From contig NZ_KK214997.1 of the NCBI RefSeq assembly GCF_000633935.1, positions 1-64,000 of the forward strand: a stretch of DNA of 64,000 bases, written 5' to 3'. Positions 1 to 24,974 of this stretch are shown in pieces. The notes under the pieces are model-generated. The model ran no database searches, was not told where the DNA came from, and saw only the letters and a list, made by a program, of their open reading frames with translations. Position numbers and translations under genes: made by a program. The first letter of the stretch is position 1; every line of letters begins with the position of its first letter. This stretch comes from Ectothiorhodospira haloalkaliphila ATCC 51935 (GTDB taxonomy: Bacteria; Pseudomonadota; Gammaproteobacteria; Ectothiorhodospirales; Ectothiorhodospiraceae).

Positions 1-1
1 A

Positions 2-4100: not shown

Positions 4101-4109
4101 AGCCGACTG

Positions 4110-4991: not shown

Positions 4992-5034
4992 GCCCAACCG
5001 CCGGATCATGGCAGCAGCTGAACGGAGACATACC

Positions 5035-5118
5035 ATGCAAGTTGCCATCGACCTGCCCAGCGACCTCGTCACGTTTCAAGGTGCCGCAGACACCCGTCAG
5101 GGGTGGCAGGCTGCCTAA
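5035..5118 (+). other. 27-codon remnant resembling a UPF0175 antitoxin start
   Basis: A short frame (MQVAIDLPSDLV start) sits between rmlD and the MntA-like gene. Its first residues resemble the start of UPF0175 antitoxins, after which similarity ends. It has a GGAGA sequence upstream but is too short for a functional antitoxin. I read it as a decayed gene fragment. Confidence 0.3.
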
Positions 5119-5140
5119 GAACCCGGCCACGAGGATCTGA

Positions 5141-5963: not shown

Positions 5964-5973
5964 ACATCATCCG

Positions 5974-8747: not shown

Positions 8748-9970
8748 GTCTTTTCAATCACAATCCTTGCATTCATCCAGGAGACACCTGAAAAGTCTGG
8801 CTTATCCTTGTTGATGACGGTGAAGAGTAATGCTCGATCACACCACTCGTAATTATTGTTCAGATGGGTGTCCGCACTGGTCAGCGCGGTCTGCACGGAA
8901 TAGGTACCTGGGCCAAGGTTTGCCTCAAAGGTGATCTCAAACTGACATTGGCTGCCGGCTTTCACATGTTCCAGCACCTGTTGGGTGTGATGCGTGTTGA
9001 TCCCGAAAACCACTTGCCCCAGGCGGTCCTTGATCCCATACCCCAGCACGAGTCTTGGCAGGTCAGTCAACGTATCCACCGTGATGGACAGTGTGACCCG
9101 CTGCCCAACGTGGACCACTTTAAGGACATGCCCTGACTCGTCGCACAGGCAGATATCCCGCACGGTCGCCTCGCCTGTACCGGATCGGGTCTGGATCTTG
9201 CCATCGCCTGTCATGTTCTGGTCGATGACCTGGTTCTGGTCTGCCGCGAGCTTGGCATTGTAGTAATCCATGACGGCTTCCGGCTCACCCTCCATGGCGA
9301 TCGCCCCGTTATCCAGAAGGATGGCACGGTCGCATAAGCTCTGGATGGCCTGCTTGTCGTGGCTCACCAGCAACAGTGTTGTGCCCTGCTCTGCCAGGCC
9401 CCGGATATGGTCAAAGCTTTTGTGCTGAAAGTACTGATCCCCAACGGATAGCGCTTCATCAATGATCAGCACATCAGGTCGACGGGCCGTGGCCACGCTG
9501 AACGCCAAGCGCATTTGCATGCCGCTGGAGTACACGCGCAGCGGCTGGTCCATGTAGTCACCGAGGTCGGCAAAGGCTTCGATGGACGGCATCAGTGCAT
9601 CAAGCTCGCGTGCAGTGAGCCCCAGAAGCTGACCCGCCATGTAGGCATTCTGTCGGCCAGTGAAGTCCTTGTGGAACCCCATGCCTAATTCAAGCAACGC
9701 GGCCACCCGTCCGCCGATATGGATGGATCCGGTTGTCGGTCTCGTGGTGCCTGCAATCATCTTGAGCAGCGTACTTTTGCCAGCGCCATTGACCCCGATA
9801 ACGCCTACGGCCTCCCCCGGCTCCACAACAAAATTCAGGTCCCTCAGTACCCAATGCAGGTCGTGGCGTTGGTGGGAAAAGGGGTCTAGCCAGTCCAGGA
9901 GTCGTGCCCAGCGATGAGGATATCGCTTGTAGGCCTTTCCCAGCTCAGTCACCCTGATGCTTCCCCTCAC
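8744..9970 (-). CDS. wzt: Polysaccharide ABC exporter ATPase with Wzt-type C-terminal domain
   Basis: The 408-residue protein has an ATPase domain (Walker A GVNGAGKST, signature YSSGMQMRLAF, Walker B VLIIDEAL, H-loop SHD) and a ~150-residue C-terminal beta-rich domain (from about residue 255) like the carbohydrate-binding domain of Wzt. Such domains read the chain end of O antigen before export. The start is the GTG at 9970, overlapping the permease stop as GTGA. Pairing with a chain-end methyltransferase fusion directly downstream suits a Wzt that recognises a methylated terminus. Confidence 0.92.
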   Translation of the reverse strand: MRGSIRVTELGKAYKRYPHRWARLLDWLDPFSHQRHDLHWVLRDLNFVVEPGEAVGVIGVNGAGKSTLLKMIAGTTRPTTGSIHIGGRVAALLELGMGFHKDFTGRQNAYMAGQLLGLTARELDALMPSIEAFADLGDYMDQPLRVYSSGMQMRLAFSVATARRPDVLIIDEALSVGDQYFQHKSFDHIRGLAEQGTTLLLVSHDKQAIQSLCDRAILLDNGAIAMEGEPEAVMDYYNAKLAADQNQVIDQNMTGDGKIQTRSGTGEATVRDICLCDESGHVLKVVHVGQRVTLSITVDTLTDLPRLVLGYGIKDRLGQVVFGINTHHTQQVLEHVKAGSQCQFEITFEANLGPGTYSVQTALTSADTHLNNNYEWCDRALLFTVINKDKPDFSGVSWMNARIVIEKT

Positions 9971-10761
9971 AGCTCGTCCACCATGTCGTGGCCATGCTTA
10001 CGGTAGAGGTGCATGCCAAGCACACACAGCAGGATGGCCAGGAGGGTGACAGGTAATAAAGATACCCAATCCGGCCAGCTACCCTGGACAAATATGGTTT
10101 GATAGGCACCTATCAGTGGAGCCATGGGATTGAGTTGCATGAGTTGCTGTGCAGCATCGGGGAGTATGGCGACGGGATAGACGATTGGCGTAAGCCAGAA
10201 CCAGAATTGAAGGATCACCGCATAAAGTTGCCCCACGTCACGGAAGAACACGTTGAGCACGCCAAGGGTGACACCCAGTCCTGCGGCCAGCGCCAACTGG
10301 ATCAGGAGTACCGGGATCATCGCCAGGATGACCCACCCTGGGAACTGCCCTACCAGCAACAGAAAGATCAAAAACAGCCCAAGGATGATGGAAAAGTTGA
10401 GCAGCGCCGTGGAGACCACGATCACGGGCAAACACAGCCGGGGAAAGGAGATCTTTTTGAGCAGGTTTGCTTGCTCCAGAAAGACAGCCGTTCCGCGCTG
10501 GGTGATCTCGGCGAACAATCCCCATGTGAGGATCCCTGCGCACAGATAGATGCTGTACCCAAAGCCACTCTCAACCCCCGGGAGCTTGACACTGATGATC
10601 TGGGAGAACACCACCGTATAGACGATGATCAGGGCCAATGGCTGTATGAATGTCCAGGAAATACCGAGCATGGAGCTACGGTATCGGGACTGGAATTCCC
10701 GTTTGACACTGCCAAGAATGAAGCTTCGGTAATCCCAGGCGGCTCGCAGCATGGGCGGCAT
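9967..10761 (-). CDS. wzm: ABC-2 polysaccharide export permease
   Basis: The 264-residue protein has six hydrophobic segments and the ABC-2 pattern of Wzm/KpsM/TagG permeases (YRSSMLGISWTFIQPLAL, NVFFRDVGQLYAVILQFWFW). It forms the membrane channel for a lipid-linked polysaccharide with the Wzt-like ATPase. ATG 10761 or ATG 10752 is the likely start; a TTG at 10788 is in frame but has no better ribosome site. It is the first gene of the leftward operon, and its promoter must lie in the short divergent gap before the gene at 10858. Confidence 0.9.
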   Translation of the reverse strand: MPPMLRAAWDYRSFILGSVKREFQSRYRSSMLGISWTFIQPLALIIVYTVVFSQIISVKLPGVESGFGYSIYLCAGILTWGLFAEITQRGTAVFLEQANLLKKISFPRLCLPVIVVSTALLNFSIILGLFLIFLLLVGQFPGWVILAMIPVLLIQLALAAGLGVTLGVLNVFFRDVGQLYAVILQFWFWLTPIVYPVAILPDAAQQLMQLNPMAPLIGAYQTIFVQGSWPDWVSLLPVTLLAILLCVLGMHLYRKHGHDMVDEL

Positions 10762-10857
10762 TATCAGGACCCGCAAAGGCCAAGGCAAGACTCGACAGAT
10801 CGTTCCCCAAGCTCTAAATTGGCGGCCTACACGGACTTCAAGAGCATTGATGGCAAG

Positions 10858-11202
10858 ATGGAGCGGTTACGCAACTGGAGCAGGTCAGGGTGGCAAGGTG
10901 CCGCGAAACCCCTGCTGCTGGCGGCTGCCGGGCATGCAGCCCGACGGCCTGGAGTGAGGCGGCTGGCGTTGTGGGTACTGCGGCGGATGCCGCGTGTCAA
11001 GCACAAGCTACGGCACTTTCTGATCGTGAATCGCAATCATGATATGATGCGGCACCTCGTCGGTACTGCCACCCGTCTGGACGTACCGGCATACCAGGAT
11101 CCTGCGCAGATCGCTGATCCCGTGCAAAGAACTTACCATCTATCGCGGATCCGGGCTCGCCAGCTGCAACAGGTCAGAAACGCCCGTCACTTTTCCTCTT
11201 GA
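10858..11202 (+). CDS. Small basic protein of unknown function, first in glycosyltransferase operon
   Basis: About 114 residues from ATG 10858, rich in Arg, Leu and Ala (ARRPGVRRLALWVLRRMPRV). I cannot assign a family. The Arg/Leu-rich stretch resembles short linkers found at the ends of some bacterial polysaccharide enzymes. The ribosome site is weak, and TTG 10819 is another possible start. It is followed by a GT4 gene after 22 bases, on the same strand. The frame is open much further upstream, but that part lies antisense to the permease gene and has no coding character. Confidence 0.5.
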   Translation: MERLRNWSRSGWQGAAKPLLLAAAGHAARRPGVRRLALWVLRRMPRVKHKLRHFLIVNRNHDMMRHLVGTATRLDVPAYQDPAQIADPVQRTYHLSRIRARQLQQVRNARHFSS

Positions 11203-11224
11203 AGCCTGAAGAAAGGAACCCTTC

Positions 11225-12274
11225 GTGCGCGTGGTCGTCGCAAACACCCAAATCCCCTTTGTCAGCGGCGGCGCAGAGAGTCATGCCGATAATCTGGTTC
11301 AGGCCCTTCGCCGCGGCGGGCATCAGGCAGAACTGGTGACCCTTCCTTTCAAGTGGTACCCTGCCGAAGTCCTTCTGGACCAGATTCTGATGGCTCGCCT
11401 GGTGTCTCTGGACGAGAGTACTGGGGAACCGGTGGATCGGCTCATAGGGCTGCGATTTCCGGCTTACCTGATCCCGCACCCGAATAAGGTATTGTGGGTG
11501 ATACATCAGTATCGCACCGCCTACGAGCTCTGGGATCACCCCGACTTTGGTGATCTTTTCCAGCAGATCGGAGCTCGCTCCGTTCGAGATGCCATCGCCC
11601 AGGCAGATCGCCAGTATATCCCGGAGGCCCGCGCTGTATTTGCCAACTCCGCTAATGTGGCTTCACGGATGCGGCATTTTTGCGATGTCGAAAGTAAGCC
11701 GCTCTACCATCCCCCACCCCATGCTGAAGAGCTTTACTGCAAGCCGGCCGAGGGTTTCCTGTTTTTCCCGAGCCGGGTCAACGCCATCAAACGTCAGTCA
11801 CTGGTGATTCGCGCGCTTTCCCATTGCAAGCAGGATGTCAAGGTTTTCTTTGCGGGCGCGTTCGAGAGCACGTATATCGAAAAGGAACTCAAGGCACTTT
11901 CAGTGGAGCTTGGCGTTTCCCACAGAGTCCGCTGGCTTGGGTCGATTACCGAGATGGAAAAACTGGATTTCTATGCCCGATGTCTGGGCGTTGTGTTTCC
12001 GCCCTATGATGAAGATTACGGGTATGTGACGTTGGAGGCCATGCTCGCTTCCAAGCCCGTGGTCACCACCCAGGATGCCGGTGGGCCACTGGAATTTGTT
12101 GAGCACGAAGTGACAGGGCTGGTTGCCGAGCCCGAGCCCGTCGCTTTGGCACAGAGCATGGACACACTCTGGAGTGACTTTTCGCGGGCAGCCCGTTGGG
12201 GCCGGGATGGCCGGGAGGCATACCTGAGCCGCGGGATCAGCTGGGACCATGTCGTGAGTACGCTGCTGGCATGA
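11225..12274 (+). CDS. GT4-family glycosyltransferase
   Basis: The 349-residue GT-B enzyme starts with an FVSGGAESHADNLV acceptor-side loop and contains FLFFPSRVNAIKRQSLVI and the ATPase-unrelated donor motif FPPYDEDYGYVTLEAMLASK, the E-x7-E region of GT4 enzymes. It is predicted to add one sugar to the exported glycan at the cytoplasmic face. GTG 11225 is preceded by AAGGAA. It overlaps the next gene by ATGA. Confidence 0.88.
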   Translation: MRVVVANTQIPFVSGGAESHADNLVQALRRGGHQAELVTLPFKWYPAEVLLDQILMARLVSLDESTGEPVDRLIGLRFPAYLIPHPNKVLWVIHQYRTAYELWDHPDFGDLFQQIGARSVRDAIAQADRQYIPEARAVFANSANVASRMRHFCDVESKPLYHPPPHAEELYCKPAEGFLFFPSRVNAIKRQSLVIRALSHCKQDVKVFFAGAFESTYIEKELKALSVELGVSHRVRWLGSITEMEKLDFYARCLGVVFPPYDEDYGYVTLEAMLASKPVVTTQDAGGPLEFVEHEVTGLVAEPEPVALAQSMDTLWSDFSRAARWGRDGREAYLSRGISWDHVVSTLLA

Positions 12275-13560
12275 AACGCATTTTATGGATTTCACCTCTG
12301 CCGCCAGCCAGGACGGATATCGCCAATTACACCCTGCGGCTCGCCCCTGAGCTGATAAAATCCGCTGATGTTCAGTTCTGCACGCCAGCCGCCCTCCCCT
12401 GCGCTACGGATTTACCTTGGCGTAGCCTCGAAAGCCTCTCAGCGCGTGAGCTGAATCAGGCCGATATCTGCATCTATCACATCGGTAACAACCTGACATT
12501 CCACGAAGACATTTTCCGGTTGAGTCGACGCCATCCCGGCTATGTGGTGCTGCATGATCGCTCGATACACGGGCTATATGCAGACTTCCTGAACCTTCGA
12601 AATGGTGCGGCGCAAGCCGAAGAGGTGGTTCAGTATCTGGAGAGCATGGGACAGTGGTATGGTCAGGAAGGATACATCGCGGCACAGAATCTGTTGGGTG
12701 GGGACGCCACGCCTGATGATTTTGCCGCGCACTTTCCACTTTTTGAAGAGGCACTGGATGCCGCGCTGGGAGTGATCACCCATAACCCTTCGGTGACGAA
12801 TGAGGTCAGGACGCGTTTTCCGCTCATGCCATGCCTTCACCTGCCACTGCCCATGGCGGCGGAAGGCGGCTTTGATCCCAGCAAACGTCAAAGAGGCCTG
12901 GAGGAACGTATAAGTCTGGTGGCGTTCGGCTTCATGGGTATGAACCGCCGGCTCTCGGAGTTTATTGAGGCATGGCGTTCCTCTCCCTGGCGTCACCGTT
13001 TCAGCCTCAATATTGCGGGGCAATTGGCGGATTGGCCTTCCCTGCGGGAGCAGCTGCGCAAGGCTGGACTTGCCCAACAGGTTCGCTGGCATGGCTATGT
13101 ATCCGATACGGAGCTCGATGCGCTATTACGCTCCGCTGATCTTGCCCTGAATTTGCGCTACCCCAGCATGGGAGAGGCTTCGGGCAGCCAGCTTCGGCTT
13201 TGGGCCAATGGCGTACCCGCTGTTGTCACGGATACCGACTGGTATGCGGGACTCCCCGATAACGTGGTTTTCAAGGTCCGACCGCCTGAGCAGGAAAGGG
13301 AGGATCTCTTGATCCTGTTGGATAATCTGGCCAATCGGGCACTCCCACTCGACGCCGTGGCGCAGGCAGGCTGGGCGTATCTGCGTACTCAACATGAGCC
13401 AGGCGCCTACATCAGCCAATTGATGCGCTGGCTGGATACGGTAGAGGATGATGCCGTCCGCCAATGGGCCTTGCGGCGGCATCTATGGAGAATCAGCGAA
13501 CAACAGGCGCAATTTTTTCCGGAAACCCTGGCCCCCGGTGTGCCTTCGGGCCTTCAATAG
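12271..13560 (+). CDS. GT4-like glycosyltransferase
   Basis: The 429-residue protein begins MKRILWISPLPPARTDIANY, like GT4 enzymes that open with a PLPP-x-SGIA-type loop. It has a RISLVAFGFMGMNRRLSEFIEAW segment at the second domain and NLRYPSMGEASGSQLRLWANG, where the glutamates of the donor site are expected. Donor and acceptor are unknown. ATG 12271 overlaps the previous stop, so it is co-translated with the upstream glycosyltransferase. Confidence 0.82.
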   Translation: MKRILWISPLPPARTDIANYTLRLAPELIKSADVQFCTPAALPCATDLPWRSLESLSARELNQADICIYHIGNNLTFHEDIFRLSRRHPGYVVLHDRSIHGLYADFLNLRNGAAQAEEVVQYLESMGQWYGQEGYIAAQNLLGGDATPDDFAAHFPLFEEALDAALGVITHNPSVTNEVRTRFPLMPCLHLPLPMAAEGGFDPSKRQRGLEERISLVAFGFMGMNRRLSEFIEAWRSSPWRHRFSLNIAGQLADWPSLREQLRKAGLAQQVRWHGYVSDTELDALLRSADLALNLRYPSMGEASGSQLRLWANGVPAVVTDTDWYAGLPDNVVFKVRPPEQEREDLLILLDNLANRALPLDAVAQAGWAYLRTQHEPGAYISQLMRWLDTVEDDAVRQWALRRHLWRISEQQAQFFPETLAPGVPSGLQ

Positions 13561-13593
13561 ACGCGCCAGGTCTCATCAACGAATGGAGAACTC

Positions 13594-14715
13594 TTGCTCA
13601 AGATCGGCATCGACGCACGTATATTGGCAGGGCCACTCGCGGGCATTGGGCGCTATGCGGATCAATTGGTCCAGCATCTGCTCAGCTACGATGCCCGGTT
13701 TTTTCTTTATGCCCACCGCCCCTTGCATGCCGAGCGTTGGATCACTGAACCCGTCACCCTGCGTTGCGCCTGCCTACGGGGGAGAATGGCCAAGGCCATC
13801 TGGGGGCAGTCCTGGCTTCCCCTGCAAGTACGACGGGATAAGGTCGATGTCTTTTGGGGCCCCGCACACCGACTGCCGCCTCTTCTTCCGGACCGTATGG
13901 GTAAAGTCGTCACCATTCACGACTTGGTATGGAAAGCGGCACCTGATACCATGCCGCGCCTCAACCAGCTTCAGGAACGGGCTTTGATGCCTCCGGCCTT
14001 GCAGCGCGCCGATCGTGTGATTTGTGTCTCACGTTACACGGCCCGGCATCTGTTGGACTGTTTCCCCAAGACACGTGAAAAGGTTCGGGTGATCTATCCT
14101 GGGGCGTCCCACTGGCCACCCCCCGACACCTTCGATTCGTTGGCCCACTTGGGCATTCATCAGCCCTATGCGCTCTTTGTCGGAACGCTGGAGCCCAGAA
14201 AAAACATTGAGCAGTTGCTGATGGCATACTGTGGACTGAGTCAGGAACTGCGCAACCACCATCAACTTGTCATCGCAGGAGCCGATGGCTGGGGTGGCCT
14301 TTCTCGAGCATCGCTCTCAAAACGCTATCCACCATCCACTGGCGTGGTGTTTACCGGCAGGCTCCCGGACTCACAGTTATCCACCCTGTATGAACATGCG
14401 CTTTTTCTGACCATGCCGTCCCTGCATGAGGGTTTTGGTCTCCCAGTGGTTGAAGCAATGAGCTTTGGTAAGCCGGTATTGATTTCTGATCGTGCCTCCC
14501 TTCCCGAGGTTGCGGGCCACGCCGGGTATATGATCAACCCAAACGACCCCAGCGGCCTGACCCGAGGCCTCAAAAGGCTGTTCTGCGACGTCGATCTGCG
14601 ATCCAGGCTGTCCACACAAGCCTCGGCCAGAGCGCAAGCCTTTACCTGGCAAACAGCGGCCGATCAGCTATGGAACATTCTGCGGGCTGAGGCCTCCGCA
14701 CAGGCAAAATCCTGA
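13594..14715 (+). CDS. GT4-family glycosyltransferase (mannosyltransferase-like)
   Basis: The 373-residue protein starts LKIGIDARILAGPLAGIGRY, the beginning usual for GT4 enzymes of the WbdA/mannosyltransferase type. It contains LFVGTLEPRKNIEQLL and FLTMPSLHEGFGLPVVEAMS (E-x7-E). TTG 13594 is the apparent start, with GGAGAA upstream; no ATG lies near the homology start. The donor sugar cannot be read from sequence alone. Confidence 0.88.
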   Translation: MLKIGIDARILAGPLAGIGRYADQLVQHLLSYDARFFLYAHRPLHAERWITEPVTLRCACLRGRMAKAIWGQSWLPLQVRRDKVDVFWGPAHRLPPLLPDRMGKVVTIHDLVWKAAPDTMPRLNQLQERALMPPALQRADRVICVSRYTARHLLDCFPKTREKVRVIYPGASHWPPPDTFDSLAHLGIHQPYALFVGTLEPRKNIEQLLMAYCGLSQELRNHHQLVIAGADGWGGLSRASLSKRYPPSTGVVFTGRLPDSQLSTLYEHALFLTMPSLHEGFGLPVVEAMSFGKPVLISDRASLPEVAGHAGYMINPNDPSGLTRGLKRLFCDVDLRSRLSTQASARAQAFTWQTAADQLWNILRAEASAQAKS

Positions 14716-14725
14716 GGAATTCGTT

Positions 14726-15859
14726 GTGCAACGGAAGATTCGTGTACTGCATGTCTACAAAACCTTCTACCCCATGACCCAAGGAGGAATACAAGAATCC
14801 ATTAGGCAAATTTGCCTCAATACGCATGCCAGGGGCGTTGAAAGCCGGGTGTTGACGCTCACTCCCTCTCCCGTGGGTCACCCTATCCGGGTGGACGACA
14901 TTGAAGTCTATCAGGCCAAGCAGTTATTCGAGCTGGCATCCTGCGGTTTTTCCCTGTCCGCCTTGACGCAATTTGGCCAACTCGCCCGCTGGGCTGACGT
15001 TCTGCATTACCACTTTCCTTGGCCGTTTGCTGATCTGCTGCATTTCTTGCGCCGACCAGACAAACCCTCTGTCGTGACTTATCACTCGGACATTGTTAGG
15101 CAACGCCATTTGAGCAAGGTCTATGCACCACTGATGCACGCTTTTCTTGACGCCACTGATATCATCGTACCGACTTCCCCGAATTACACGCGGAGCAGCC
15201 CGATTCTCAGGCGGTTTCGAAATAAATTACGTGTCATCCCCTTGGGTTTGAATGAATGCAGATATCCTCCCCCTGGCAGGGCATGTCCTCTGCCATTTGA
15301 AGACCGGGAAGAGTTCTTTCTTTTTGTGGGTGTCTTCAGGGCTTACAAGGGTTTACACATCCTGCTCGAGGCTGCCCAAAACGCATCTTTCAAAGTGGTC
15401 ATTGCAGGGCGTGGGCCCATGGAAAAACGGCTCAAGGCCCAGGCCAGGCGCTTGAACCTGGATAACGTTTTCTTTCTGGGTCACATTTCCGATGAGCAGA
15501 AAATCGATTTGATGCGACGCTGCCGCGCAGTGGTTCTACCTTCACATCTTCGTTCCGAAGCCTTCGGTTTGTCCTTGCTGGAGGGTGCCATGCAGGCACG
15601 CCCGCTGATTTGCACGGATCTCCACACCGGTACAAGCTTTGTAAATATTCACGAACAAACAGGCATCGTGGTTCCCAGCGGGGATCCTGAGGCACTGCGC
15701 GCCGCCATGGATCGTCTATGGGACAATCCCAGTCTAGCCAGGTCCATGGGACAAGCCGCACGGAATCGGTTTGAAACTCACTTTTCGGGGACAGTCATGG
15801 GAGAACAGTATTTCGACCTTTACAGCGGCCTGGCCGCACCCCGTGCACATGCAGGATGA
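14726..15859 (+). CDS. GT4-family glycosyltransferase
   Basis: The 377-residue protein has the GT4 layout: RVLHVYKTFYPMTQGGIQE at the N-terminus, VLHYHFPWP in the first domain, FFLFVGVFRAYKGLHILLEA at the second, and LPSHLRSEAFGLSLLEGAM as donor-site motif. The type is close to WbdB/PimA-like mannosyl- or rhamnosyltransferases, but the specificity is open. It starts at GTG 14726, ten bases after the previous gene. Confidence 0.88.
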   Translation: MQRKIRVLHVYKTFYPMTQGGIQESIRQICLNTHARGVESRVLTLTPSPVGHPIRVDDIEVYQAKQLFELASCGFSLSALTQFGQLARWADVLHYHFPWPFADLLHFLRRPDKPSVVTYHSDIVRQRHLSKVYAPLMHAFLDATDIIVPTSPNYTRSSPILRRFRNKLRVIPLGLNECRYPPPGRACPLPFEDREEFFLFVGVFRAYKGLHILLEAAQNASFKVVIAGRGPMEKRLKAQARRLNLDNVFFLGHISDEQKIDLMRRCRAVVLPSHLRSEAFGLSLLEGAMQARPLICTDLHTGTSFVNIHEQTGIVVPSGDPEALRAAMDRLWDNPSLARSMGQAARNRFETHFSGTVMGEQYFDLYSGLAAPRAHAG

Positions 15860-15903
15860 ATGCATTCCTTCCCTTTTGCTGAAGCCTTGCAAGGAGCCCT
15901 TCG

Positions 15904-16695
15904 ATGAACCTGGTGCCCATTTCCCCTATTGAGCACAAGCGCCACCACTGGAGGGCTCCCACCTCCCAGGACTTTGCTCGTGACAAGCCATTGATTCCGC
16001 TGGTGGCGGCAGAACTGCCCAAGGCGGCGCTTGCTGCCCCCATCGTGATGACACGCCACCAAGAGGCCTGGGTTCCACAGATGCTGATGGGGTTCGAGAC
16101 GGGTAGAAACCTCATGATCGCGCGTAACGGCCTGATGATTGCGGACTATACCCCGATCCTCATGCGTCTTTATCCCTTCCGGGCAATGACCTCGGAAAAC
16201 GGGGACACGGTACTGTGCTTTGATGAGGGCAGCGGCCTGATCACGAAGGATGAAGAGGCCACACCCTTCTTTGATGCGCATGGTGTTCTCTCAGCGCCCT
16301 TGCAGCGAATCATGGATTCATTTCGGCGATTCGAAGACAACCGCCTGAAGACAATCGAATCCTGCGCACTGCTGGGCAAGCATGATTTATTCGAGCCCTG
16401 GCCCATGGCCATCCGCAAGACCGACGAGAGCGTACACCTGATTGATGGCCTATTCAGGGTCAACGAACGAGCCCTGAAAGCCCTCAAAGGTCCTCAACTG
16501 GAGGAACTGCATCGGGGGGATGCGCTTGCACTGGCTTATTGCCAGTTGTTGTCCATGAACCGGGTATCTACCTTGGTGGCGTTGGCAGGTGCCCATCAGC
16601 AACTGGATAGAGCCCCTTCTCTGGATGATGTCGGCATGGATACGTTGGCAAAACCGGACGCGATTGTGTTCGACTGGGATGATCAAGGGCAGTAG
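15904..16695 (+). CDS. SapC-family protein
   Basis: The 263-residue protein matches SapC: an N-terminal HHWRAPTSQDFARDKPLIPL stretch, then LMIADYTPILMRLYPF, FDEGSGLI, and the regularly placed LMDSFRRFEDNR-type helix. SapC was first described next to S-layer genes in Campylobacter, but its biochemical role is not established. AAGGAG stands just before ATG 15904. As the last gene of the glycosyltransferase operon it may help attach or assemble surface material; this is inference. Confidence 0.8.
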   Translation: MNLVPISPIEHKRHHWRAPTSQDFARDKPLIPLVAAELPKAALAAPIVMTRHQEAWVPQMLMGFETGRNLMIARNGLMIADYTPILMRLYPFRAMTSENGDTVLCFDEGSGLITKDEEATPFFDAHGVLSAPLQRIMDSFRRFEDNRLKTIESCALLGKHDLFEPWPMAIRKTDESVHLIDGLFRVNERALKALKGPQLEELHRGDALALAYCQLLSMNRVSTLVALAGAHQQLDRAPSLDDVGMDTLAKPDAIVFDWDDQGQ

Positions 16696-16766
16696 TTGAT
16701 CGTATGTAACGCTTGCACGTAAGCTGCATGATGGAACATTCAGGACACTCTGGATATGGCCATACC

Positions 16767-19700
16767 TTAATCCGATCTGCCTGTGACACCCAAGGGCGTC
16801 ACCCGCCAATGCAGTCGATCCAGCGCAACGCACGTCATCGCCCAAGCAAATCCGTACTTCCAACGCGTGGCTGGCTGAAGACGTGGAGAGAACAACACGG
16901 CCCCTCGTTCTGGGAATTGCTGCCCCCGATTCAGTTCCAGCGTACCCCCTGCGCGGATCATCGCGCCCTCCGGCATTCGTTTTCTCCAATACGCCAGTTG
17001 TGTGTCCTTGGCCATTCGCGGAGTCGAAAGGTGAAGCAACTCAACGTCATCCTGTAGCTCTGTCGCAGAGAAAAGCCTCCACCACAGATTAAAAAGAGGT
17101 ATACGGTCGCAGACCAGCATCATTGGATGATCTGCCAGTTTTCCACTGATATATCCGGCTGCAAGCTTGGCAAGTTGCTCGGATCTTAGCAGACGCGGAT
17201 CACTGAGCAGAAGATGTACGAGTCGACGCGCCAAGTTGCGATCTTGCTGTGTCCGCGGAGGTTCCAGCAAAGGGGCCCCGGCACCCCGGGTTGACATTCG
17301 AAAGTGCTCGGGGAGATCTGCCAGCCAAGCCCGCGCAGCATCCAGCTTTCTAGGTGGATAAGGATACACGAAGCCTTCGTCCTGCCCTACTCCATCCACA
17401 CGATGGTTGAGTGCCTCAGTACGGAGTAGCAATTCCTCGTATGCATCCTCAGGAGTACGAAGCAACTTTTGATTCATCGGCTCCGGCCAGGTCAGGCGCT
17501 TGTGGTTGGGTAATGCCGCGTCCCCCAGCGCATCGAGTTGATCGCATACCGATTGTGATTCCATTTCCCGCGCTACGTCGTACACGGTTGAGGGACGTAC
17601 GCCCGCAAGGGCGGCCACCTCTTCAACCCGTAGATCCGGGATTGCGGCCCGAACAGCACGTCCCAGAAGAAGATCGGCGCAGTGTATGTAATGGTTCATG
17701 GTGATGTCGGTTGTGGAGTGGCCAAGGAGCATGCTGATCAGTCTGAGACTGCGTCGCTGTAACTTAGCCTTGCCTAGCAATTGCTCTCGCGTATGGCATG
17801 CTGATTCCAGGCCCAATAGTCGACCGAACCACCCCTGAAAATCGACGTCCCGATCCTGGTTCTCGTAGTACCACAAGCCCATCAACATCCTCTGGGCAAA
17901 GGAATGCCGGAAATGATGAAAACGCAGTGTTCGATCACCACTCATTCTGACCAAGGCCTGCGTCACTGCGTCCAGATCCAGGTCGAACTGTCGCAACTTA
18001 CGCTCGCGGGCACTCTGTAGTTCCGAGGAGAATAGAAGTTTTTCGGATGGCTTCACTCCAGCTTCAACCGCTCTTTCCTTTTGACGTTCAATCCAACCAA
18101 TGAGTAGTTCGAGGTAGTGCTTGGGAACCAGAAATCGAATGGGCAGTACACGGTTGGCATTATCTGTTTTGAGCGATCTCAGCTTGTTGGGGTTGACCAC
18201 CAGTGTATACTCAGGCGGGCCATCAAAGTCCCCCACGCATAAGCCTACGGCTTCACTTCTTCGAAGCCCCGAAAAGTACCCCAAAACCGCGATCAAGATA
18301 CGGATTGTGCCCTTTTCCGGATCATCCACGTGTGTGTGGCGAAGATAACGACAAATCCAGTCAAACGTATCTGGATCAACAAAGTTGGCATCGACTGAGT
18401 GAGGTTGACGGAACATTTGACTGAACATGCCCGACTCATCAAGCGGGGGAACCCCATGCTTTTCGACAAGAAACTCATGAAACGACCGAAGGCCCTTCAC
18501 AATACGTTTTCGCCGTGCCCCTGTTTCTGCTTCATCCAGGACATTGGTATAGATTGCAATAAAATCGTCCTCTGCCTGGATCTCGGTGAAATCTGACCAC
18601 CCCATTTGGCCCACCAGACCAGGGGCAATCGCATATAGGTTGGCACGCAGTTCACGACAATGATCACTTTTTTGCCTGTTTAGCACATAAAGCACCCAAC
18701 CGGACAAGCGAAATACACTCGCTGGGATGTAACGGTTTTCGCCATCCAGGAATCGCTTTGCACCCTCCACCCAGTTGCTGACCCTTGCAATCGATGCCTC
18801 CCTTGACGCATCGTTGATCGCATCGAGCAGTGAAACCAGCGCATGATGCAGAATATTTGGAAACCCATTCCCCTCCGTGTCGCTTTCATCCAGCTCGGAG
18901 TCCGGCGACAGGGCGACCGGGATTTCGGTCTCTTCCCATACCTCCATATTCGCTACATGTTTGGGGGGGTTGAACAGACGATCCAACGTCCTCACCGGCA
19001 GTGAGGCCGAGGCGTAATACCCCTTCGCGAACCCAACGAGATGTGCTGGCACATAAATTGATAGGCGTGTTGTCGCCAGGCTTTTGAGCTCAGCCCAGTT
19101 TTTCGGCATCCGGTTAGCAAATCCCTGGGCATCAGCGTAGGCTATGATATTTCTGTAAAGCGAACGGGTATTCCGGACTTTGAATGGTGATTTTACTGCC
19201 TGCGGGTCCACCAGCAGCCTTCGTTGCCGAAGCAGCAGATGACGAGAGATGGGATCGAGAAAGTAGCGTCGAAAGGTGGCTGGACCTTGATCTGGGTGAT
19301 GAACCGATATATCCAACCAGTAGCCATGCGCAGGCGAATCGAACATTGCCTGGGGCACAGCCAGAAGGGATTTGGAGTCGAACACTCCTGAAAAACTGAT
19401 CAGAGAGAACAACAGCCGACCCCAGCTCAAGGCCTGGCAATGGTCACATTGCTCCAAGCGCTGGACATCCGTAATCGACTCCATGAAGGCGTCGAAAACT
19501 GGCTCTCCGGCAACGAAGGCTTCGAACTTCTGACTTGAAAAGAGCAAGCCGGTGGGGGTGGGCAGTGGTGCCGGGATGCGAGTGACGGGAATATTCCACC
19601 GTCGAAGTCGGTTTCCGGCATCAAGCACCTCCAGAGCTCGCCAGCGAGTTATGAAATTTTTGTACGCCGGGGCCCGAGTGCCGACCTCTGTGATGACGGC

Positions 19701-19982
19701 ACCGAATTCAAAGGGCACCTCTGGGGGGTCTTTCTCTTCAGCAGTTCCGCCGCCCTGGGCAAGCAGCGGGAAACTTCTGTGCAACGCCTTCAGTACCGGC
19801 AAATACTCTGCCGGGGGGGACCAGGACTCAACAGGTTGAAACTGGGGTATGACTGGATCCAGCAGATTCACGTAAGGGGCCCAGAGCTGTCGCCAACGCG
19901 CCCACAAGCGCGCAACATCCACGTCACCTGGCAGGTCAGATGGCCGATTGCCTGCCTCGGGATTATCAGGCTCATCGGTCAT
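16767..19982 (-). CDS. Very large tyrosine recombinase (1071 residues)
   Basis: The catalytic core of a tyrosine recombinase lies at about residues 540-770: GYFSGLRRSEAVG (first catalytic Arg near 573), RFHHFRHSFAQRM (HxxR near 689-692), LLGHSTTDITMNHYIH (His near 755, candidate nucleophile Tyr near 763). The ~530-residue N-terminal part and ~300-residue C-terminal part have no family that I recognise, though VEEVAALAGVRPSTVYDVAREM just after the core looks like a helix-turn-helix. Ordinary integrases have about 300-450 residues. ATG 19982 overlaps the preceding gene by ATGA. It is the last gene of the module, and its 3' end is convergent with the SapC gene 71 bases away. Confidence 0.82.
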   Translation of the reverse strand: MTDEPDNPEAGNRPSDLPGDVDVARLWARWRQLWAPYVNLLDPVIPQFQPVESWSPPAEYLPVLKALHRSFPLLAQGGGTAEEKDPPEVPFEFGAVITEVGTRAPAYKNFITRWRALEVLDAGNRLRRWNIPVTRIPAPLPTPTGLLFSSQKFEAFVAGEPVFDAFMESITDVQRLEQCDHCQALSWGRLLFSLISFSGVFDSKSLLAVPQAMFDSPAHGYWLDISVHHPDQGPATFRRYFLDPISRHLLLRQRRLLVDPQAVKSPFKVRNTRSLYRNIIAYADAQGFANRMPKNWAELKSLATTRLSIYVPAHLVGFAKGYYASASLPVRTLDRLFNPPKHVANMEVWEETEIPVALSPDSELDESDTEGNGFPNILHHALVSLLDAINDASREASIARVSNWVEGAKRFLDGENRYIPASVFRLSGWVLYVLNRQKSDHCRELRANLYAIAPGLVGQMGWSDFTEIQAEDDFIAIYTNVLDEAETGARRKRIVKGLRSFHEFLVEKHGVPPLDESGMFSQMFRQPHSVDANFVDPDTFDWICRYLRHTHVDDPEKGTIRILIAVLGYFSGLRRSEAVGLCVGDFDGPPEYTLVVNPNKLRSLKTDNANRVLPIRFLVPKHYLELLIGWIERQKERAVEAGVKPSEKLLFSSELQSARERKLRQFDLDLDAVTQALVRMSGDRTLRFHHFRHSFAQRMLMGLWYYENQDRDVDFQGWFGRLLGLESACHTREQLLGKAKLQRRSLRLISMLLGHSTTDITMNHYIHCADLLLGRAVRAAIPDLRVEEVAALAGVRPSTVYDVAREMESQSVCDQLDALGDAALPNHKRLTWPEPMNQKLLRTPEDAYEELLLRTEALNHRVDGVGQDEGFVYPYPPRKLDAARAWLADLPEHFRMSTRGAGAPLLEPPRTQQDRNLARRLVHLLLSDPRLLRSEQLAKLAAGYISGKLADHPMMLVCDRIPLFNLWWRLFSATELQDDVELLHLSTPRMAKDTQLAYWRKRMPEGAMIRAGGTLELNRGQQFPERGAVLFSPRLQPATRWKYGFAWAMTCVALDRLHWRVTPLGVTGRSD

Positions 19983-22663
19983 GGCAGTCTTCCATCAAAC
20001 CCCAACTGCTCCATCAGGGCATCGAGCGCGGGACGCACCTCGTTTCGAAACTGCACGGGGTCAAACGCTGAATGGGGTGTCCAAGGCTCTTCTCCGTAGG
20101 ACCAATGTCCCATCTGCGCGTTGATGGCGGTGGCCGCCACGCCCTGGTGAGTCAGGTAGGTGCGAAGAAAGTGGCGACCTGCATTCGCCACGGGCCAGGC
20201 ATCCGGCTCTATCGCATCGCAGTGTTTCTTCAACGTGGCGCCGGTGAATTCCTCGGGATGCCACCTCCCCCGCTCTTGCCAAGCAAGGAAAAAGAGTGTT
20301 CGCCGAAGGTCGAGATGAAAACCGGCCGATCCGTAACGACTTCGATCCCGGTTCTTTGTCGCTGGAACCTTGAGCAGCAAGGGAAAGCTAACGGGAAATT
20401 GCAGGAACAGTTGACTCAAATGTCGACGATAAGCCTTAACCAGCGTCACGAGCGCTTCAGGCAAAACCACAAGCCTGGTATGCCGACCGTCCCACTGATC
20501 CTTTTCGGCGAGAAGCATGGTCTGTGACGCCTCATGGACTGCGGTCAGGTCGGTAACGGGCGTGCGAACAGAGCGGAACCCGGTGCCCAGAGCCAGTGCC
20601 AAGCCGACGTAAAGCGTTCGCCAGTTGTGTTGCTCACATAATCTGCTCATGTCCCTGCGGTGATATGGGCTGCCCACCTGCGGAGCCTTCGCGCGTACTC
20701 GCTCCATAAAGGCTTTGAGATGCTCAACTCGGGGCGCACGGTCATTACCTACCCAGCTCTCATCGATCGTCACACAACTTGCCTTGCTGGCAAACAGTGC
20801 ATGCGTGTTTGAATCCCGACTCGGAAGATCTAACCGCTCTGCCAATCCCCCTAATTCATTGGCATAGTACCCCGCCAACTCAGCACGCTGGAAAGCGGTA
20901 TAATATGCATGTGTCTGTGCCATGGGATCAGGTCTATCGAAAAGCAGACGATTCTCCAGATGCGCCCCTTCTTCTAATCCCGCAAACCAGGATGGTAGGA
21001 CATCGCCCATGTTATCAATTTTCTGCCACCGCCGCTCCAATCCTGCAAGAGCCATCCTTTCAGCAATCTTCTCGTCCCATTTCCTCAGATAAGCTGCTGG
21101 CCTCCAACTTTTTGATCGGAATGGTTGGATACGGGCCCGAGGGTTTATCGAAAATTCAATCAGCTCTTGGACGAACTCATTCTTCAAATGATCTGAAACG
21201 CCCCAGACATCTGGAAATACTACGCGAGGTGACATCTCAACTGCCTGTTTCCCCGACATCTCCTGGCCCATGGGTGCACGTATGGGAGCATAAAAAAGAG
21301 ATCGAATCCACATGTCGTGATCGGGATTAAAAGCCAGGTGTCGGACTTTCTCATGGCGGGTGAGTGAACGTAAAACAACCATCGAACAAACCGATTGATA
21401 AGCAGTGCCTGTGACCAAGGAGACGGCACCCAGCAAGGCCGTCAATCTGAAACTTCGGTCGGACTCATGAAATAGCTCTTCCAGGACGGACATAATGAGT
21501 CGTATCTCACTGAGACGAATCCTGCGCCGCTCTACTGACAGGCGCTGCGCATGCATGGCTACATGGCGGGCTTTTGCACGAGCATTGGCAAAAATCGTGC
21601 TCAGCGGTGGAAGAGGTTCAGATTCCGACGAGATATCCCTATCTTCTTCTCCCAACAGATACCCAATATCCAGTTCCACATTTGACAAGTCATCATACTC
21701 ATCCGGGTCCAGACCTGCTTCTTTCAGTTCAGTTTGAATTTTTTCATCGGGACGATTCAATTTGATTTGTCCCATACGACCACCCCAGGATACCTCGGTG
21801 GCACCATATTCTGACAATACTTGGTAATAGGAATGATCAGGATAGATGTAGTGCTGGATGCGACGGGGGCCGCGTTTACCCTTATTTTTATTTAGCTTCT
21901 TCCCACCCTCAAATTCTGGAGGCCTCATCAGGCCATGGGCGAAAGCAATATTGTTCTTGAATTCTGGAATACCATGTCGCTGTCCAAGCACATCACTCGA
22001 TTGCATACTTCCCATGCGTCGAGGGTCATGATCAGCGGGATTCAGCCATTCTGTGAGCTCATCAAGCGCCCCGATGAGGTATTCGGGTTTACTGATATCC
22101 CCCGCCAAATAATCAAAGACCCAGTCATAACGTGCCTCATGCCAGCAACGAATCCTTCGCGCCGAGTCCTTCCACCCTGGTTTTCTGTCTTTGGAAATGT
22201 GCACCTCATTACGCCGCAGCAGGATGTGGGCCACAACCATGTGGGCCTGGAGCCATTTGTAAATCCCGGGTATGTGCGAGCTATGTGGATCCAGTTGATG
22301 CCTCCACCAGAGGGCGCACCACACTGGATAGGTTCCGTTGTAGCCATGCAGCGGTGATTTGAACGCGCCCGAGGATTCACGGATTCGCGTAAGGGCGGGT
22401 AATTGCCGCAGTTCGGATTCAAGGGGGATACAGCCTACTGCTTCAGCCCAGGCGATCAGGTGAGAGAAATCCTCATCCGCCTGGTTCGCCAGGCATTCGA
22501 TATTCTCTTTGAGTTCGAGCACATTTTCGGCGATGGGGAATAAGCCGCGTGCATCGGGAGGAATGGGGAATTCCTGCTCGAGGTGACTCCACAACTCCCG
22601 ACTGCCAGCGGGCATCTCATCGAGTATGGCGTCAAGGGGCGGTGCTTCTGTGCGTGGCGCCAT
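19979..22663 (-). CDS. Large tyrosine-recombinase-like protein (894 residues)
   Basis: A recombinase-like core lies at the C-terminal end: LALALGTGFRSVRTPVTDL (Arg near 696), NAGRHFLRTYLTHQG (RHxxR near 833) and INAQMGHWSYGEEPW (GHW near 855). No tyrosine stands at the usual nucleophile distance after GHW; the sequence there is TPHSAFDPVQF, so the protein may be a catalytically altered partner. The N-terminal ~600 residues match nothing I know and contain two basic K/R-rich stretches. It sits four bases after the ParB-like gene and overlaps the 1071-residue recombinase gene, so the three are one operon. Confidence 0.7.
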   Translation of the reverse strand: MAPRTEAPPLDAILDEMPAGSRELWSHLEQEFPIPPDARGLFPIAENVLELKENIECLANQADEDFSHLIAWAEAVGCIPLESELRQLPALTRIRESSGAFKSPLHGYNGTYPVWCALWWRHQLDPHSSHIPGIYKWLQAHMVVAHILLRRNEVHISKDRKPGWKDSARRIRCWHEARYDWVFDYLAGDISKPEYLIGALDELTEWLNPADHDPRRMGSMQSSDVLGQRHGIPEFKNNIAFAHGLMRPPEFEGGKKLNKNKGKRGPRRIQHYIYPDHSYYQVLSEYGATEVSWGGRMGQIKLNRPDEKIQTELKEAGLDPDEYDDLSNVELDIGYLLGEEDRDISSESEPLPPLSTIFANARAKARHVAMHAQRLSVERRRIRLSEIRLIMSVLEELFHESDRSFRLTALLGAVSLVTGTAYQSVCSMVVLRSLTRHEKVRHLAFNPDHDMWIRSLFYAPIRAPMGQEMSGKQAVEMSPRVVFPDVWGVSDHLKNEFVQELIEFSINPRARIQPFRSKSWRPAAYLRKWDEKIAERMALAGLERRWQKIDNMGDVLPSWFAGLEEGAHLENRLLFDRPDPMAQTHAYYTAFQRAELAGYYANELGGLAERLDLPSRDSNTHALFASKASCVTIDESWVGNDRAPRVEHLKAFMERVRAKAPQVGSPYHRRDMSRLCEQHNWRTLYVGLALALGTGFRSVRTPVTDLTAVHEASQTMLLAEKDQWDGRHTRLVVLPEALVTLVKAYRRHLSQLFLQFPVSFPLLLKVPATKNRDRSRYGSAGFHLDLRRTLFFLAWQERGRWHPEEFTGATLKKHCDAIEPDAWPVANAGRHFLRTYLTHQGVAATAINAQMGHWSYGEEPWTPHSAFDPVQFRNEVRPALDALMEQLGFDGRLP

Positions 22664-22667
22664 GCCG

Positions 22668-23195
22668 CTACTCCTGGCGGCGGGTTCGGTGCTTGTTCTT
22701 CATGCGGTCCATCTTGCTGTGGGAGATACCAAGGAAGTCAGCGAGTTCGAAAAGGCTGGGTGACTTCGGGAACCCCATCTGTTGGGCGAGGCCACCATCC
22801 AGCATTCCAGCTTCTCGAGCATCCAGCCAGCGCAGGATGGAAAGATCCTCAGACCCGGAGCCTAGCAGAACCGGGCTGAGCAGATCATCCAGGTAAGCCA
22901 GCGAGTCTACGTCGTACCCGGAATCCAGGGAGACGGCAGGAACAAGGATACCAGGGCTCAGCACTGCTCGGGCCAACTGCAATGAACGGTGGCCTGCCCG
23001 AATAATGTATTGGCCCTCATCCGCTGGAGTGACACAGATCGGGTGAGCCAACAGCAAATGACGTACGGCTTCCGGGGTAAATCGAGTGGCGGCAGCAAGA
23101 CAGGAATCGCCAGGAATCCAGCGTCTGACCTCAGCTTCTGAGTTCGCTATCTGGATGGAGTCGAGGGGGATATCAAGGTAGCGCGGCTTGGCCAA
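22668..23195 (-). CDS. ParB/Srx-like protein, first gene of recombinase module
   Basis: The 175-residue protein begins YLDIPLDSIQIAN, followed by a GQYIIRAGHRSLQLARAVL stretch and IPAVSLD-like strand; this is the order seen in the ParB/sulfiredoxin-like nuclease fold, where a G-x-R/H-R-x2-A motif binds nucleotide. The C-terminal FELADFLGISHSKMDRMK looks like a helix-turn-helix. So it may bind DNA and regulate or assist the two recombinases. The start is TTG 23195 with AGGATCC upstream. The assignment rests on motifs only. Confidence 0.5.
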   Translation of the reverse strand: MAKPRYLDIPLDSIQIANSEAEVRRWIPGDSCLAAATRFTPEAVRHLLLAHPICVTPADEGQYIIRAGHRSLQLARAVLSPGILVPAVSLDSGYDVDSLAYLDDLLSPVLLGSGSEDLSILRWLDAREAGMLDGGLAQQMGFPKSPSLFELADFLGISHSKMDRMKNKHRTRRQE

Positions 23196-23217
23196 TTGCG
23201 GATCCTGATGTCGCCAG

Positions 23218-23399
23218 GGTAGTGCTCAGCACTATACCGCAATTTAAGGAATTCTGCGTTGGGCAATCCGAGCCCATGAATTACGCGTTTTGCTGACTAA
23301 GGATGACCTTAAATGCTTTTAAATGATCTTAAGGTCTTGTAATGATTGGTTTTTTCTTTGGCCGGCCCGGCGCTTACCAACCATGTCAAGGTAGTGCTC
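23218..23399 (+). repeat. 10-bp direct repeat GGTAGTGCTC at both ends of the gap beside the module
   Basis: GGTAGTGCTC occurs at 23218-23227, just upstream of the ParB-like gene, and at 23390-23399, exactly where the BCCT coding sequence breaks off. Such a repeat could be the core of a recombination site or a footprint of insertion. Ten bases is short, so chance cannot be excluded. The gap itself holds no gene. Confidence 0.4.
23305..23336 (-). promoter_or_regulatory. Inverted repeat upstream of the recombinase module
   Basis: GACCTTAA (23305-23312) and TTAAGGTC (23329-23336) form a perfect 8-base inverted repeat with a 16-base A/T-rich spacer that contains further TTTAAA-type halves. It lies about 110 bases upstream of the ParB-like gene and between the two GGTAGTGCTC copies. 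It may be an operator or a recombinase binding site. Confidence 0.45.
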
Positions 23400-24519
23400 G
23401 CAGCGCGCTGCCGCCGAAGATGGCCATCCACGCGAACACGAACAACGAGGGCAGCGCCAGCACCCCGAAAATGAACTCGCGGATGGTGCGTCCGCGAGAG
23501 ATGCGGGCGATGAAGATGCCCACAAAGGGCGACCAGGCGATCCACCATGCCCAGTAGAACATGGTCCAGTCCTTCTGCCACTGGGAGCCGCCGATGGCGT
23601 CGGCATACAGGGACATTTCAACCAATTGCTGCAGATAGGCACCGGTGGAGTCCAGAAGGAAACGCAGGATGAACAGGGTGGGACCAGCAAACAGCACGAA
23701 CAACATGAAGACGACTGCCAACCCCAGGTTGAACACGCTCACCCACTTGAGACCCCGATCCAGCCCCGACAACACCGAGAATACGGCCACCAGGGTGATG
23801 CCGGTAATGATCCCCACCTGATACCAGTGGGACACGGGCATGTCGAAAAGCACATTGAGCCCGGTATTGAGTTGCATGGCACCGAAACCCAGCGATGTGG
23901 CCAGACCAAACAGGGTGCCGAATACCGCCAGAATATCGATCACATGACCGATCGGCCCATAGATACGGTCGCCCAGCAGCGGGTAGAAGATCGAACGAAT
24001 CGTCAGTGGCAGACGGTGGCGGAAGCTGAAGTACGCCACCGACAGCCCCAGCACCACATACACAGCCCAGGCGTGAAGCCCCCAGTGGAAGAAGGTGTAG
24101 ACCATGGCCTGGCGCGCGGCCTCCATGGTTTCGCCCTCCCCCGTGGGCGGGTGCTGATAGTGCAGGATGGGTTCGGCAACACTCCAGAAGACCAGCCCGA
24201 TGCCCATGCCGGCCGAGAAAAGCATGGCGAACCAGGCCCCGTAGCCGAACTCCGGACGATCATCCGGCTGACCCAGGCGGATGGACCCGTAGCGGCTGAA
24301 ACCAAGCCAGATCAGGAACACCAGAAACACGGTCACCGCCAGCAGATAACCCCAGCCCAGATACTCGGTGATGAAGCCCTGGATCCCCTCGAACACCTGG
24401 CTGGCGGTGGCGGGAAAACTCACTCCGAAGCCGACGAACGCCAGCACCATGATCGCCGAGGCGATGAAAACCGTGGGATTGACAGTGGCGAAGAATGCTC
24501 CTGGGCGATACGGTCTCAT
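23386..24519 (-). pseudogene. BCCT-family betaine/choline/carnitine transporter, 3' truncated
   Basis: The frame encodes 377 residues of a BCCT transporter with about ten hydrophobic segments. It has the signature GMGIGLVFWSVAEPILHY and WAWWIAWSPFVGIFIARISRG, followed by RTIREFIFGVLALP. Family members have 500-700 residues and end with two more helices and a cytoplasmic tail; here the frame stops right after IFGGSALRALP, at the border of the recombinase module. BCCT carriers import glycine betaine as an osmoprotectant. Start ATG 24519 overlaps the PEBP gene stop by ATGA. Loss of the last helices probably abolishes transport. Confidence 0.85.
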
Positions 24520-24974
24520 GATCCGTGATCCGGCGTTGGCATGCACAGCGCGCCCGTAAGACGGGCTTCGGCCAGCACGTGCCCCGATGCGGCGTGTTCG
24601 AATTGCGAACGGGTGGCACCTGCCTGCAGGTCAAGCTCGGCGTCCAGCGCCAGCAGGCGGAAACGATAATGATGACAACCCTCCGGCGGTACCGGCCCCA
24701 GATAGCCGACCTTGCCGAACGCATCCATGCCGGTCCTTGCCTGGCTGGGCAGATTCAGCGAGTCCACGCGTTGGGTCGTCGGGGGTAAATTCCACACCAG
24801 CCAGTGGGTCACCTCCCCCAGCGGCGAATCCAGGTCCTCCAGGAGCAGCGCCAGACTGTGGGCATCTCCCGGCACATCATGGATCTCCAGCGGAGGGAGT
24901 TCGTTGGCGTGGCGGGCCGAGACATCCACAGGCATGGCACCACCATCCGGGAACGAAGGACTTGTCAGCTTCAT
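24516..24974 (-). CDS. YbhB/YbcL-type PEBP-family protein
   Basis: The 152-residue protein belongs to the phosphatidylethanolamine-binding-like YbhB/YbcL family (Raf kinase inhibitor-like). Visible are LTSPSFPDGG, ALLLEDLDSPLGEVTHWLVWNLPP, the GYLGPVPPEGCHHYRFRLLALD core, and SGHVLAEARLTG near the end. Its ligand in bacteria is not known. ATG 24974 is chosen; an in-frame TTG lies 15 bases upstream. It is coupled to the BCCT gene by a 4-base overlap. Confidence 0.9.
   Translation of the reverse strand: MKLTSPSFPDGGAMPVDVSARHANELPPLEIHDVPGDAHSLALLLEDLDSPLGEVTHWLVWNLPPTTQRVDSLNLPSQARTGMDAFGKVGYLGPVPPEGCHHYRFRLLALDAELDLQAGATRSQFEHAASGHVLAEARLTGALCMPTPDHGS

Follow-up and report, generated by a model that had tools for sequence, protein, structure and literature searches.

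Many integrative islands are explained by one integrase together with a directionality factor, and in the gamma-mobile-trio (GMT) islands a trio of genes is linked to cargo, which is a likeness to the locus described here. This locus is an operon of three genes (P175, P894 and P1071) in the window, by which we mean the whole stretch of 64,000 nucleotides that was analyzed (positions 1 to 64,000 of contig NZ_KK214997.1 of Ectothiorhodospira haloalkaliphila ATCC 51935). From our analysis, the trio looks like a new type of mobility module, in which two proteins of about 750 to 1200 residues are linked to a ParB-like protein and, in some of the loci, to a phage-type integrase. We give a probability of roughly one half to the reading in which the trio is the recombination module of an integrative genomic island, lies at the left end of this island and has tRNA-Val(GAC) as its attachment site.

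Several described elements resemble this design. By the excerpts of their description (PMC10214605), the SE elements (intA, tfp, intB, srap) share with the trio a recombinase operon at the left end, a small accessory protein and occurrence in Gammaproteobacteria, and their Tfp is a recombinase-fold protein without the catalytic motif. The GInts (ginABCD), in the excerpted account of PMC5385486, also have a multi-recombinase operon at one end, with variable cargo and high site specificity, and their GinC is without one catalytic residue, a further likeness. Tn554 and its long-recombinase relatives carry two recombinases, one of which is of abnormal length (611-828 aa), in many cases together with a small third protein (excerpts of PMC3414803). 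The IntBPP-1 (PF12167/DUF3596) integrases, in the sections of PMC8138268 drawn on here, have the same arm-binding domain as the integrase at the right end of the islands described below. A published description of the trio itself was not found in the open-licence literature, by titles and abstract openings, among the matches listed.

A conserved trio with a ParB-like first protein

All three genes lie on the minus strand and are transcribed in the order P175 (22668..23195; open reading frame (ORF) of 175 aa with a TTG start, a ParB/Noc-like domain and a helix-turn-helix (HTH) region), P894 (19979..22663; ORF of 894 aa with a recombinase-like C-terminal region) and P1071 (16767..19982; ORF of 1071 aa, a predicted tyrosine recombinase). 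An earlier note on this DNA, made from the sequence without database searches, had described a coupled trio of these lengths, and the ORF coordinates bear this out with a 4-base gap (22664-22667) followed by a 4-base overlap (19979-19982). In what follows, L numbers are loci and G numbers are genomes, G000 being the genome of the window and C3 the contig of the window.

Among 192 surveyed genomes, one of which is that of the window, 13 have a match to P1071, and all three genes recur in the same order as close relatives in L024 (G024), L025 (G032) and L027 (G025). A scan of named genomes with an alignment of P1071 relatives confirmed 93 loci, of which 80 were kept. Conserved synteny, put forward earlier as a check on the module, is found among them: the middle gene stands directly before the large gene (overlap of at most 300 or gap of at most 150 bases) in 67 of the 80 loci and is fused to it in two (L147, L164). 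The middle gene is separated, or a partner is split, in five loci, and it was undetected in six, where the upstream sequence amounts to 0-1079 bases. For the small gene, a profile was iterated on the 59 candidate ORFs that immediately precede the middle gene, and it matched 55 of them; a further 20 loci, several of them at contig ends, have no candidate small ORF in that place (middle-gene matches of at least 600 aa were counted, six loci falling below this length). Against the 5238 ORFs of all loci, the profile gave 57 matches, 55 directly before a full middle gene and two, in L111 and L103, at a greater distance upstream of a middle gene. By these gene-order counts and small-gene matches, the trio is a stable unit.

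The hosts, by record title, are Gamma- and Betaproteobacteria, Desulfuromonadales, Nitrospirae, Acidobacteria and one Flavobacteriaceae bin. Near-identical members stay in the counts (e.g., L024/L025; the Polynucleobacter loci L097/L100/L121/L159), and the independent lineages are therefore fewer than the counts. The arrangement, recurring in 67 of 80 loci and in several phyla, is not due to chance. Searches of plasmids by tblastn gave partial matches to P1071 in 210 records, none reaching 80% coverage, and a single partial match to P894; in the viral_contigs search there was no confirmed match. The fused middle-large polypeptides measure 1807 to 1913 residues in L147, L164 and L038, the last of which lies outside the 80 loci. 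One contig of Hydrogenovibrio sp. SC-1 (L167/L169) carries two middle-large pairs in divergent orientation.

P1071 matches the Pfam family Phage_integrase with 38.4 bits, passing the gathering score of 27.1, and its PHROGs matches are integrase families and one family of unknown function. The residues R574, K605 (taken as the catalytic Lys), R692, H755 and Y765 are invariant in 89 of 89 relatives, the second-box His (H689) is kept in 87, and the His-to-Tyr spacing is 10 residues in all 89. The residue counts cover proteins of at least 700 aa and take each place once, leaving aside L091, L093 and L169, which are the same places as L025, L027 and L167. About 450 residues precede the catalytic region and about 280 follow it. 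As judged from its sequence, P1071 has the full tyrosine-recombinase catalytic signature R-K-H-R-H-Y.

The earlier note had ascribed this signature to both large proteins. That holds for P1071 with its full set, and for P894 it fails at two places, as P894 has His864 for the Tyr and an Asn at the second-box His. P894 has no Pfam match above the cut-off and no accepted NCBIfam match. Since no Pfam match passes, its recombinase signature is visible only through conserved residues and the weak matches of its relatives. Six residues (R697, K721, R730, R830, G852 and H853) are invariant in 77 of 77 relatives, N827 sits at the place of the recombinase-box His and is Asn in 72 of them, and Ser865 is kept in 74. 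At the expected place of the nucleophile (H+11), the family has Tyr in 38, Phe in 14 and other residues in 25 of the 77 proteins. The P894 of the window has His864 there and is without Tyr from H+4 to the C-terminal end, and its nearest relatives have Tyr, Pro, Phe, Asp or His at H+11. Because of the His at the expected Tyr place, the window's P894 probably does not cut DNA. This claim is limited to the window protein, and an inactive middle protein is not claimable for the whole family because of the Tyr at H+11 in 38 of the 77. A PDB profile search with the P894 family gave a XerC-like recombinase as its sole match (E 0.054), and PF00589 is touched by 5 of 47 relatives with a best E of 0.0012. 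The structure model of P894 is poor (mean predicted local distance difference test (pLDDT) score of 55), and the three best Foldseek matches of this low-confidence model are one integrase and two recombinases, at E 0.13 to 0.4. There was no match in PHROGs for P894 or P175 and none in PADLOC for any of the three proteins.

The first gene had been called ParB/Srx-like, and this was confirmed by the predicted structure together with the family profile. The AlphaFold model of P175, built on four sequences, has a mean pLDDT of 75.6, and in Foldseek it gave 12 matches with E<=0.001, all of them ParB/Spo0J, Noc or PadC, with modest TM-scores of 0.29-0.39 by query. The top VIA-align score is against ParB (Z 9.1 over 95 residues), and sulfiredoxins and other folds are also in that list with Z of 7.1 or less. 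The profile of 39 relatives, searched against the PDB, has Noc (5e-5) and ParB (0.0023) as its top matches, and 10 of the 12 PDB matches listed are ParB or Noc. Pfam reported no ParB family among the 39 members taken singly, and P175 itself has no Pfam match above the cut-off and no accepted NCBIfam match. The family consensus holds a GxR-like motif, from which CTP binding or clamp closure is not readable. On the predicted structure and the family profile, P175 is assigned a ParB/Noc-like fold.

Ends of the element and the tRNA-Val(GAC) site

The left terminus of the element, GAGCACTACCTTGACATGGT (23380..23399, minus strand; the window reads it from 23399 to 23380), consists of 20 nt identical to the tRNA-Val(GAC) genes of the host, which lie on contigs C1 and C2. 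In the relatives L091/L025, L035, L094, L096, L097, L098, L100, L121, L159 and L160, this end adjoins the 5' half of a tRNA-Val(GAC) gene. After GGTT, the joint is without A in L091/L025 and L096 and without AGA in L094, L097, L100, L121, L159 and L160, while it loses more in L098 and nothing in L035. The island of these relatives lies between the 5' half of tRNA-Val (left, at the trio end) and an intact tRNA-Val (right), and genome comparison shows that the promoter and 5' part of the intact gene come with the right end of the island. Since the tRNA is restored in full, the crossover is expected no further in than the D-loop, at it or before it.

Repeats and empty sites define the element further. 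In G007, whose genus is that of the window, a stretch of 114 kb has a perfect 73-bp repeat at each end; the repeat holds the promoter region and 5' part of the tRNA, and its far copy is an intact tRNA. L100 (Polynucleobacter 31A-FELB) has a 22-bp repeat and an element of 11.7 kb, flanked by a RelA/SpoT gene and a threonyl-tRNA synthetase-like gene, and in G032 the half and the whole tRNA-Val are on two contigs. Direct repeats of at least 17 bp around the trio were found at three places (71 loci examined): those of L100 and L106 are in tRNA genes, and that of L027/L093 (one genome) is not in a tRNA found by ARAGORN. In G022, G033 and G026 the site is empty, and one intact tRNA-Val stands between the two flanks that border the island in G032. 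The flank upstream of the intact tRNA is conserved between genomes and could be taken for native chromosome; this was rejected, as the empty sites show it to be the right end of the island. Repeat-bounded islands at tRNA genes are thus a finding from relatives, and the window holds the left terminus only; likewise, the undivided site in a sister genome was seen for the G032 island and not for the window's own site. Two of the genomes with an empty tRNA-Val site, G026 (L034) and G022 (L037), hold short stretches that match only about 35 last residues of P1071 and are possible remnants.

A second, direct copy of the terminal motif lies 172 bp inward (23215..23227, minus strand), just upstream of the P175 start, with 12 of 13 bases alike. 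Such a copy (GARCACYACY, at most one mismatch) is found 150 to 185 bases inward, by the start of the small gene, in 11 of 12 tRNA-Val-type elements, a count that leaves out the duplicates L091 and L027 as well as L035, where the trio begins 2.1 kb inward, and in which several of the 12 are close relatives. In 1000 mononucleotide shuffles, the mean was 0.4 and the maximum 4 of 12. The element without a second copy is L160.

At the right end, just inside the intact tRNA and facing into the island, we found an integrase with PF12167 and PF00589, by Pfam in L195 (G007), L197 (G000), L198 (G024) and L100, and by sequence and tree in L200 (G032) and L199 (G025). The integrase of L197 is on contig C2 of the window's genome, outside the window. 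For the wider survey, an integrase profile was built from seven integrases, among which those of L100, L028, L029 and L030 are neighbors of the trio. An integrase lies downstream of the large gene in 32 of the 80 loci, convergent with the trio in all 32 and codirectional in none. When only loci having at least 7 kb of downstream sequence are considered, 27 of 52 have the convergent integrase. The idea of the trio as a recombinase module needs qualification: its large proteins are of recombinase type, and in the tRNA-Val islands with a located far end and in these 27 loci it is not the sole recombinase, as a PF12167 integrase stands at the far end or converges on it.

The trio and the integrase can occur in one shared block. 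The Halomonas-type loci L120 and L123 share 8.7 kb at 88.5% identity, with limits near the outer genes, which are the small gene at the start and an HTH-like gene beyond the integrase at the end, and L128/L136 share the same trio-integrase-HTH stretch at 73.9%. The 8.7 kb between the tRNA-Gly repeats of L106 hold the trio and a DUF234 ATPase, and among its ORFs of at least 70 aa there is no recombinase besides the trio. Between trio and integrase, L100 has one HTH-like and one HipA-type gene (L100:13534-15149). In the integrase tree, the integrases of seven tRNA-Val islands fall on one side of a branch with support of about 90, not starred; for the large proteins, grouping by site as well was not rejected by the approximately unbiased (AU) test (p 0.486).

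In the window itself, comparison of genomes with and without the module, which had been proposed as the way to locate the ends, put the left end at position 23399, where it meets a truncated host gene of a BCCT transporter (23400..24546, minus strand; profile positions 1-360 of 485). The intact BCCT genes of L055 and L056 are homologous up to this junction (23399..23400) and no further. Positions 1..23399 are probably the left part of the island on the window contig, and the right end is not on this contig; the G+C content is 56.4% in the 23.4 kb left of the junction versus 62.1% for 23400-64000. The BCCT gene of G007 is intact and has the same orientation, at a distance of 4.7 kb upstream from the tRNA-Val joint. 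Neither the BCCT tail (about 140 codons, present in the G007 gene) nor the left tRNA-Val half was found in the window's genome. From this one sister genome, we infer that a deletion of about 4.7 kb, ending at the island terminus, later joined the BCCT gene to the left end. Off-target insertion into the BCCT gene is less likely, because the layout of G007 and the failure to find the BCCT tail and left tRNA half fit a deletion better.

Other features of these genomes are recorded here. The low-G+C stretch 1-16700, left of the trio, has sugar transferase and ABC transporter genes by eye and a SapC gene by profile, which may be island cargo. Contigs C1 and C2 of the window's genome (L196, L197) have about 9 kb in common at 99.9% identity, in two pieces (5.2 and 4.0 kb), including the intact tRNA-Val(GAC) and adjacent tyrosine-recombinase genes that are RIT-trio-like by eye. 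A 1.5-kb gene family of unknown function occurs near both ends of the G007 island (L074, L195) and at the end of contig C4 of G000 (L077).

Proposed role of the trio and competing readings

The trio stands at the terminus, P1071 has its whole catalytic site, the operon is conserved and L106 has a trio-only interval; from these observations we infer that the trio may have a role in the movement of the island. A number of observations weigh against this reading and the mechanism built on it. The trio end is joined to other DNA, with no tRNA half, in the window, L024 and L027/L093. The island is not closable in the window's genome because its right end is on contig C2 and its left end on C3. No convergent integrase is seen in the fetched stretch of 25 loci out of the 52 whose downstream sequence reaches 7 kb, and in five loci (L114, L118, L119, L141 and L149) an integrase is instead upstream, in the same direction. 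The integrases of G000 and G007 are near-identical and at the same site, although their large proteins and trios are very far apart; this and the grouping of the seven integrases suggest that the integrase is what fixes the attachment site, and it may do so without the trio. As for the middle protein, its kinship with recombinases is supported by matches that are weak but consistent; hhalign of the P894 family versus the P1071 family gave no match, and the Tyr present in 38 of 77 middle proteins is one residue beyond the His-Tyr spacing of the large protein.

The alternative that survives best, and which we consider unlikely, is that the trio keeps or guards the island and does not move it, with P175 serving in partition or silencing while the large proteins resolve dimers, exclude rival islands or act in defense. 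The ParB-like fold of P175 would suit such a role, and integration is explicable by the integrase alone, PF12167 integrases being a known subgroup of phage integrases in the excerpts of PMC8138268. However, the three proteins had no PADLOC match, the operon has no fourth gene as a ParA partner (the neighbors were not searched for one), and L106 has no other recombinase. The motif and its second copy at the very end, by the operon, in 11 of 12 elements suit a role at the end of the element.

Next in standing, and improbable in our view, is the possibility of two separate elements at one hotspot, in which islands of the integrase sit by the tRNA, and trio elements bounded by ends of their own have inserted beside them as a tandem array. 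The very different trios that go with near-identical integrases in G000 and G007 speak for it. In G024 and G025, moreover, the left flank at the trio end is not tRNA, although the same strand carries an intact tRNA-Val 45-48 kb downstream, and L106 has a trio without an integrase between its tRNA repeats. The shared 8.7-kb block of L120/L123 and its counterpart at 73.9% in L128/L136 argue the other way, since trio, integrase and HTH gene are one unit there; so do the convergence of all 32 downstream integrases, none codirectional, and the single repeat pair of L100, which encloses both trio and integrase.

Returning to the trio as the recombination module of a tRNA-Val island, its parts may work together as follows. 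P1071 and P894 would form a mixed recombinase, and at least in the window the cutting would fall to P1071 alone. P175 would bind the repeated GARCACYACC motif (copies of GAGCACTACC) at the end and beside its own start, and this binding may organize the island end and regulate the operon. Trio and integrase together would excise and integrate the island. The most specific version, in which P175 loads on the GARCACYACC sites and licenses a giant mixed recombinase whose P1071 cuts and whose P894, with an active-site pocket and the near-invariant serine but in the window without the tyrosine, sets the order or direction of strand exchange, coupled to the phage-type integrase at the far end, is speculative and doubtful as a whole.

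If the trio is required for movement, a ParB fold would be tied to the control of recombination, and the three genes would be a marker set for islands that the scanned family libraries leave unnamed. This idea is directly testable, since the ends are mapped, there are empty sites and L100 has a compact copy of 11.7 kb.

Comparison with described multi-recombinase elements

The earlier note could name with certainty no known trio for this locus, and in agreement NCBIfam gave no match of a trio model to the window proteins. The GmtY model NF040693 (441 positions, cut-off 340 bits) had no match to the three proteins, and against ten proteins of relatives it gave one score of 14.7 bits, far under that cut-off. 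No NCBIfam match named GmtX or GmtZ was found for the proteins of the window or of its relatives, the presence of those models in NCBIfam being unverified. It is very improbable that the trio is a divergent member of a described family (GMT, RIT, SE, GInt or Tn554): the excerpts on SE and GInt give the same design idea of several recombinases, one without catalytic residues, and a small protein in one operon at one end, but no GMT model matched the window proteins, and gene number, order or sizes, by the descriptions available in part, are unlike those of RIT, SE, GInt and Tn554.

The differences are as follows. RIT elements consist of three adjacent tyrosine recombinases, whereas the first protein of the trio is ParB-like. 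The SE elements, in the excerpts of PMC10214605, number four genes, two of them for full-signature recombinases and the last one small; in contrast, the trio has one full-signature and one incomplete giant protein, its small ParB-like gene comes first, and in part of the loci a phage-type integrase stands at the far end or converges on it. GInts have three integrases followed by the small GinD and use sites that include an ABC transporter gene and ssb, and the excerpts of PMC5385486 make no mention of a separate PF12167 integrase. As for Tn554, the excerpts of PMC3414803 do not call TnpC ParB-like and mention neither a separate integrase nor a tRNA site. Unlike the IntBPP-1 integrases, the islands add a giant recombinase trio at the other end. 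In essence, compared by description, the trio islands are best read as a multi-recombinase integrative element that differs from SE and GInt in gene number, in gene order and in the ParB-like nature of its first protein.

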